The notes under the pieces are model-generated. The model made no database searches. It worked only from the letters and a program-made list of their open reading frames with translations, and was not told where the DNA came from. Position numbers and translations under genes: made by a program. A stretch of DNA of 33,240 bases from Pseudomonadota bacterium (GTDB taxonomy: Bacteria; Pseudomonadota; Gammaproteobacteria; JAADHS01): the NCBI GenBank assembly GCA_021821045.1, contig JAKACW010000051.1, positions 1-33,240 of the forward strand. The letters run 5' to 3'. This document shows, one piece after another, positions 28,976-29,320 of this stretch; the first letter of the stretch is position 1, and each line of letters begins with the position of its first letter.

Positions 28976-29320
28976 ATGGTACGCAACGTTATCAAAACGG
29001 TAGTTCTGGTTGGCGCTCTGGCATCTGCTCCCGCGGCTTTCGCCGGTATGGGCGGCATGGGCGGCATGGGTGGTATGGGTGGTATGGGTGGTATGGGCGG
29101 CATGGGCGGCATGGGTGGAATGGGTGGTATGGGTGGTATGGGCGGCATGGGCGGCATGGGCGGCATGGGTATGGGCACCGTCACCACGGGAACGACTAAT
29201 ACCGGTGGCACCGTAACCGTTCGATCCATGGGTGGCATGGGTGGCGGAATGGGTGGTGGCATGGGTGGCATGGGCGGTGGCATGGGTGGCATGGGCATGG
29301 GCGGTGGCATGGGAATGTAA
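28976..29320 (+). CDS. secreted Met/Gly-rich tandem-repeat protein
   Basis: I do not recognise a family for this 114-residue protein. It starts at ATG 28976, eight bases after GGAG; the in-frame ATG at 28970 is too close to it. A signal peptide (MVRNVIKTVVLVGALASAPA, then AFA) is cleaved at residue 23. The 91-residue mature chain is 52 Gly and 25 Met: thirteen perfect MGG units, then MGMG, a Thr/Val-rich linker (TVTTGTTNTGGTVTVRS) and a second block of MGG/MGGG. It has no Cys, His or aromatic residue. Thioether-only, Met-rich exported proteins suggest binding of Cu(I) or Ag(I), or scavenging of oxidants by Met oxidation; both are inference. A phased regulator site precedes it and an intrinsic terminator follows. 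Confidence 0.85.
   Translation: MVRNVIKTVVLVGALASAPAAFAGMGGMGGMGGMGGMGGMGGMGGMGGMGGMGGMGGMGGMGGMGMGTVTTGTTNTGGTVTVRSMGGMGGGMGGGMGGMGGGMGGMGMGGGMGM
29048..29317 (+). repeat. 9-bp minisatellite coding for MGG repeats
   Basis: ATG codons recur every 9 bases from 29048 to 29165 (14 in a row), with GGY/GGA codons between. A second, less regular block with 9-, 12- and 6-base units runs from 29228 to the end of the gene. Third-position changes (GGC/GGT) come in runs of two or three units, suggesting that groups of units were duplicated together. Confidence 0.85.

Follow-up and report, generated by a model that had tools for sequence, protein, structure and literature searches.

Gene and features at the locus

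The window (the entire 33,240-nucleotide stretch of DNA that was analyzed) contains an open reading frame at positions 28976-29320 of the forward strand. Its 114-residue product, termed the MGG protein here, comprises a predicted 23-residue signal peptide and a 91-residue mature chain. The gene is preceded by a tandem promoter box and is followed by a convergent regulator gene and a group of cytochrome genes:

28885..28911, +: three tandem GTAAG half-sites with an 11-bp period (GTAAGGAAAGCGTAAGGGCCGGGTAAG), a PmrA/QseB-type box with the layout described in PMC3973317
28962..28967, +: Shine-Dalgarno sequence GAGGAG, read directly, 8 nt before the ATG at 28976
28976..29044, +: predicted signal peptide MVRNVIKTVVLVGALASAPAAFA, with an R/K n-region, a hydrophobic core and an AxA site; cleavage site placed by the AxA rule
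29045..29176, +: Met/Gly array 1, with 13 perfect MGG units (29048-29164), from the sequence
29177..29227, +: linker TVTTGTTNTGGTVTVRS, from the sequence
29228..29320, +: Met/Gly array 2 (MGG, MGGG and MG units) and stop codon, from the sequence
29356..29385, +: intrinsic-terminator-like hairpin (29356-29375) with a T7 run, overlapping the 3' end of the convergent regulator gene
29382..30902, -: QseB/PmrA-like response regulator with Asp51 kept, in one ORF with a degenerate kinase core of the QseC type that has Gln in place of His and no N-box Asn
31001..31016, +: PmrA-box-like site TTAAGGGTTACTTAAT in the intergenic region between the regulator and cytochrome genes
31160..32313, +: cytochrome b561/membrane DHC chimera (PF01292 and PF09626), by profile match; start codon chosen by eye
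32229..32717, +: DUF1924 cytochrome (SHP-type), by profile match; likely start near 32310
32714..33240, +: soluble dihaem cytochrome c (DHC), by profile match; runs to the end of the window

The mature chain consists of 25 Met, 52 Gly, 8 Thr and 3 Val residues and one each of Asn, Arg and Ser, with no Cys, His or aromatic residues. Met and Gly together account for 84.6% of the chain, and Met alone for 27%. The longest perfect run of MGG has 13 units, the whole protein includes 20 nonoverlapping MGG triplets, and the Met/Gly portion is interrupted by a single Thr/Val linker. When the coordinates, frame and composition given in the initial annotation were recomputed, the same values were obtained.

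The predicted signal peptide ends in AFA. An alternative in-frame ATG at 28970 has the GAGGAG sequence just 2 nt upstream, and the start at 28976 was chosen over it because there the spacing is 8 nt. Downstream, the terminator proposed in the initial annotation is present as a hairpin with a T7 run, but 0.7 such matches are expected by chance.

The DNA encoding the array contains higher-order repeats of 9 bp and 45 bp. Variation among the 13 MGG units is confined to two synonymous third positions of Gly codons. When the same variation is read in any of the five other frames on both strands, which include long antisense PPM/PPI and AAH/TTH frames, residues change each time. The 13 units fall into three types and, if three to four events are assumed, P is about 0.01 to 0.002. 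With three unit types and hence few independent events, the test falls short of overwhelming and counts as suggestive (P about 0.01).

Homology searches and a paralogue

The MGG protein belongs to no catalogued protein family. Profile searches found no family for it in Pfam or NCBIfam, including no match to the Pfam Collagen model (PF01391). Its best match in the PDB is the tail of the 60-kDa chaperonin (GroEL), and most of its genome matches are likewise GroEL tails, which were recognized by their 550- to 580-residue frames and discarded. A tblastn search of plasmids gave no match, a result that is uninformative because the low-complexity filter masked the query. The AlphaFold model has a mean pLDDT of 53.5 and order in the signal peptide only; this model is uninformative on order because it was built from a single sequence.

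A second gene for a secreted MGG protein is present on another contig (C24) of the same genome (4.5 Mb, 140 contigs). Its product has 123 residues, with a predicted signal peptide also ending in AFA, a shorter MGG array and an 80-residue nonrepetitive tail, and a Pfam profile search found no family for it. The paralogue is diverged, yet its layout is that of the window gene. Searches of 369 class genomes and of two further genomes from the family gave no recognizable counterpart of either gene. The sole small-frame match to the paralogue in other genomes sits within the reading frame of another gene and was rejected.

A scan for the exact pattern of AFA followed by MGG arrays covered 84,980 species, a set from which the source genome was possibly left out, and gave three matches. 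Two were discarded, one being GroEL and the other lying within another large protein. The third is a true analogue, a short exported MGG peptide (VAFAGGMGGMGGMGGMGGMGGMM) from a Lentisphaeria metagenome-assembled genome (L061:1-153, minus strand), and it is cut by the end of its locus. Further exported Met-rich proteins are encoded in two other genomes (G034 and G178, loci L006 and L024); these have MDGMSGM or MNSMSGM arrays and Ala/Lys-rich, coiled-coil-like tails, and occur in tandem copies.

A shared promoter box

The half-sites of the window gene begin at -91, -80 and -69 from the start codon. The initial annotation had claimed that the gene has its own regulator site, and this is borne out: none of 100 shuffles of the window reached the observed number of matches. 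Similar arrangements precede three other transcription units in the genome. The paralogue has TTAAG, CTAAG, CTAAG and CTAAT at -107, -96, -85 and -74. A gene for a secreted protein on contig C38 has four half-sites, of which the outermost has one mismatch and the last starts at -68, and the qseBC operon on contig C114 has two, the last starting at -70. The C38 protein (G000:C38:58000-63000; L124:2121-2522, minus strand) has 133 residues, is apparently exported, lacks a Pfam family and is encoded next to a sulfate-permease-family gene. Judging from its promoter, it is likely a fellow target of the same regulator.

Genome-wide (4.5 Mb), the triple BTAAG/BTAAG/BTAAK at 11 bp with zero mismatches is confined to the two MGG genes, although this rarity is partly by construction, in that the pattern was relaxed after both sites had been seen. 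For this reason, the shared period, orientation and distance are a stronger argument than rarity. Three TAAK sequences spaced at 11 bp occurred in none of 20,000 simulated 150-bp stretches. With one mismatch allowed, neither the triple box (7 matches versus 12 in the control) nor the canonical two-site box (48 versus 147) is enriched in the genome. Because the two-site box is not enriched, single two-copy matches were not counted; one of them, at C40:14800, lies inside a coding region. In a relative (G002, loci L055 and L057), the same triple GTAAG box is found upstream of genes for cytochrome bd oxidase and a CCP_MauG peroxidase.

The established PmrA box is CTTAAT-N5-CCTAAG (PMC3973317), and the MGG gene is preceded by half-sites of the TTAA(G/T) type arranged in tandem every 11 bp, a feature of PmrA/QseB regulons. 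Our firmest new result is the assignment of this gene to a PmrA/QseB-type regulon, which we regard as highly probable; it is well supported by sequence because the box matches the PmrA/QseB type and a QseB-like regulator gene adjoins the MGG gene. We infer that the regulon is of a redox or respiratory-stress type. We know of no earlier description of secreted Met/Gly proteins as PmrA/QseB targets.

The family searches and the genome-wide box scan, together with the sequence itself, support the view of the initial annotation that this is a real, regulated and secreted gene without a recognized family. The paralogue, the regulon and the exported (M-x-G)n proteins of other genomes described below go beyond it.

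Neighbouring regulator and cytochrome genes

The regulator encoded next to the MGG gene scores best with PmrA/QseB models, and the cztR, silR and copR models score lower. In its DNA-binding half it closely resembles the QseB paralogue on contig C114. The fused kinase core is homologous to QseC from the same contig (E-value 1e-23) and has no sensor region. Because Gln takes the place of the phospho-acceptor His and the Asn of the N-box is missing, it is doubtful that the fusion protein has kinase function of its own.

The genes for the cytochrome b561/DHC chimera, the DUF1924 protein and the soluble DHC are divergent from the regulator gene. The DUF1924 protein is presumably SHP. SHP operons that carry QseC-type sensors have been described (PMC2909971), and PreA (QseB) of Salmonella switches on a cytochrome b561 gene (PMC2653508).

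Among the window genes examined, none was recognized as encoding Cu/Ag efflux, multicopper oxidase or CusRS proteins, and none corresponds to msrP or msrQ (yedYZ). The sole MsrP-like protein found in the genome is encoded on contig C68 and scores 92.8 bits, below the cut-off of 207.

Met/Gly arrays linked to S-oxide reductases

Searches with the window protein revealed exported proteins with MSG, MGG or MNG arrays in at least 14 genomes, from the same class and from other parts of the phylum. The genes for these MSG proteins have as neighbours a conserved partner gene (11 genomes), a multihaem cytochrome gene and, from the DMSO/S-oxide reductase family, a DmsA/DmsB/TorD set. Eight of the genomes with MSG proteins show dmsA, which in two cases is cut by the end of the locus. 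We count as Dms-linked (M-S/G/N/Q-G)n loci L007, L015, L018, L022, L064-L067, L112, L121 and L122. One MSG protein matches the Pfam Collagen model.

The conserved operon in loci L064-L067, L007, L036, L112, L121 and L122 comprises genes for the very Met-rich MSG protein, a small Trp-rich partner, the multihaem cytochrome, and DmsA, DmsB and TorD. Several MSG/Dms loci also include an NtrC-like two-component system. In one genome (G349, L123:268-2326), an additional MSG gene lies beside a gene for an apparently exported MsrA-MsrB fusion (PF01625 and PF01641). The Dms-linked operons are possibly of greater interest than the window gene.

Reduction of methionine sulfoxide within proteins has been reported for S-oxide reductases of this superfamily (PMC7402097). 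The context of the MSG proteins is thus circumstantial evidence favouring a role in methionine redox chemistry for exported M-x-G arrays. The MGG protein has neither the GYFKITPQG nor the WVCTQW insert found in MSG proteins, and tblastn searches with DmsA, DmsB, TorD, the cytochrome and the partner protein found no match in the window. E-values between the two kinds of protein are unsafe because both are of low complexity, and MGG and MSG proteins are therefore described here as analogous, not as established homologues.

Possible functions of the MGG protein

The reading that we prefer, to which we assign a probability of roughly 40%, is that the MGG protein is an exported sink for oxidants that is switched on by a PmrA/QseB-type regulator and works like MrpX, a periplasmic peptide rich in methionine that belongs to the sigF/nrsF-yedYZ hypochlorite system (PMC4623255). 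A regulator of this type, either the adjacent one or the QseBC paralogue, would bind the three half-sites 69 to 91 bp upstream of the start codon, and would induce the MGG gene along with the cytochrome b561/DHC/SHP operon, the MGG paralogue and one further small exported protein. The Sec system would export the small protein, whose mature chain would be a flexible array presenting 25 thioethers, one every three residues. In the envelope, the Met side chains might be oxidized to methionine sulfoxide by HOCl, peroxide or similar oxidants and thereby protect functional proteins, and a sulfoxide reductase may recycle the oxidized residues. The context of the MSG proteins and the redox character of the neighbouring regulon lend this reading indirect support. 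Against it, no methionine sulfoxide reductase gene is located near the MGG gene, and the MsrP-like protein of the genome scores below its curated cut-off.

Alternatively, the protein might be a periplasmic sponge for soft metals, a His-free analogue of SilE/PcoE in which the thioethers of the Met-only array would hold Cu(I) or Ag(I). Met coordinates both ions in known proteins, the MGG array offers its 25 thioethers at M-x-x-M spacing, and SilE, a Met/His sponge with an intrinsically disordered chain and a capacity of six Ag+ ions, provides a precedent (PMC5008109). However, the SilE motifs require His as well as Met, and no genes for Cu/Ag efflux, multicopper oxidase or CusRS were recognized beside the MGG gene. 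The regulator is, moreover, PmrA/QseB-like rather than CusR/CopR-like. Metal binding is the main rival reading, but we consider it unlikely. A structural or surface role, in which the three-residue period would form polyglycine-II or collagen-like helices with a stripe of Met and build a coat, filament or matrix, appears quite unlikely. Such a role would suit the strict Gly period, and the MSG protein that matches the Collagen model is analogous, whereas the MGG protein itself falls short of that model, has no Pro and, with 91 residues, is short for a filament. The AlphaFold prediction of order in the signal peptide only would also speak against it, were the single-sequence model informative.

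It is very unlikely that the array is a largely or wholly functionless by-product of slippage in 9-bp repeats. Although the 9-bp and 45-bp repeats, and the absence of orthologues from the two family relatives and 369 class genomes, speak for such an origin, differences between units are synonymous only, and the gene has a predicted signal peptide, a Shine-Dalgarno sequence, the shared promoter box and a diverged secreted paralogue of the same layout.

A broader reading, which we consider unlikely, is that MGG and MSG proteins alike are exported thioether batteries. Oxidants would convert the Met residues of their M-x-G arrays to methionine sulfoxide, which dedicated periplasmic S-oxide reductases of the DmsA or MsrAB type would reduce, so that the proteins might act as a redox buffer or even as a respiratory electron acceptor.

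The MGG protein would be one of the most extreme exported proteins rich in Met. It would bring proteins of this kind under the control of a PmrA/QseB-type regulator, adjacent to the oxygen-binding SHP cytochrome system. In combination with the MSG proteins of the Dms loci, it makes a concrete, testable case for exported methionine arrays as bacterial redox material.

Comparison with known systems

Like MrpX, the MGG protein is predicted to be a small exported Met-rich protein with dedicated regulation and a proposed capacity to take up oxidants as methionine sulfoxide. In contrast to the MrpX system, the MGG gene has no adjacent msrP/msrQ (yedYZ) or sigF/nrsF genes and has a PmrA/QseB-type box instead. 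Its product, compared with MrpX by description, is almost pure Met and Gly. SilE and PcoE share with it export, probable disorder and a repeated Met spacing, but the MGG protein lacks histidine, has a different repeat and is without sil or pco neighbours. The C-terminal (GGM)n tail of GroEL has the same triplet repeat, but is a short, cytosolic part of a 550-residue protein, whereas the MGG protein is free-standing and apparently exported.

The Dms-linked MSG proteins resemble the MGG protein in having a signal peptide followed by a period-3 Met/Gly array, with about 26% Met. They differ in their length of about 190 to 520 residues, in their GYFKITPQGQIFFYP or WVCTQW inserts, and in being encoded with NtrC-like regulators, the Dms operon and, upstream, the conserved partner gene. 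The regulation of the MGG gene resembles that of PmrA/QseB (PreA) regulons in its tandem half-sites with an 11-bp period, in the autoregulation-like site before qseBC and in the cytochrome b561 gene among the putative targets. The cores here are GTAAG or CTAAG in three or four copies, in contrast to the two CTTAAT/CCTAAG half-sites of those regulons. By the features compared, the MGG protein appears to be a member of neither the MrpX, the SilE/PcoE nor the MSG class, and is best called an exported methionine-rich protein of the presumably protective kind.
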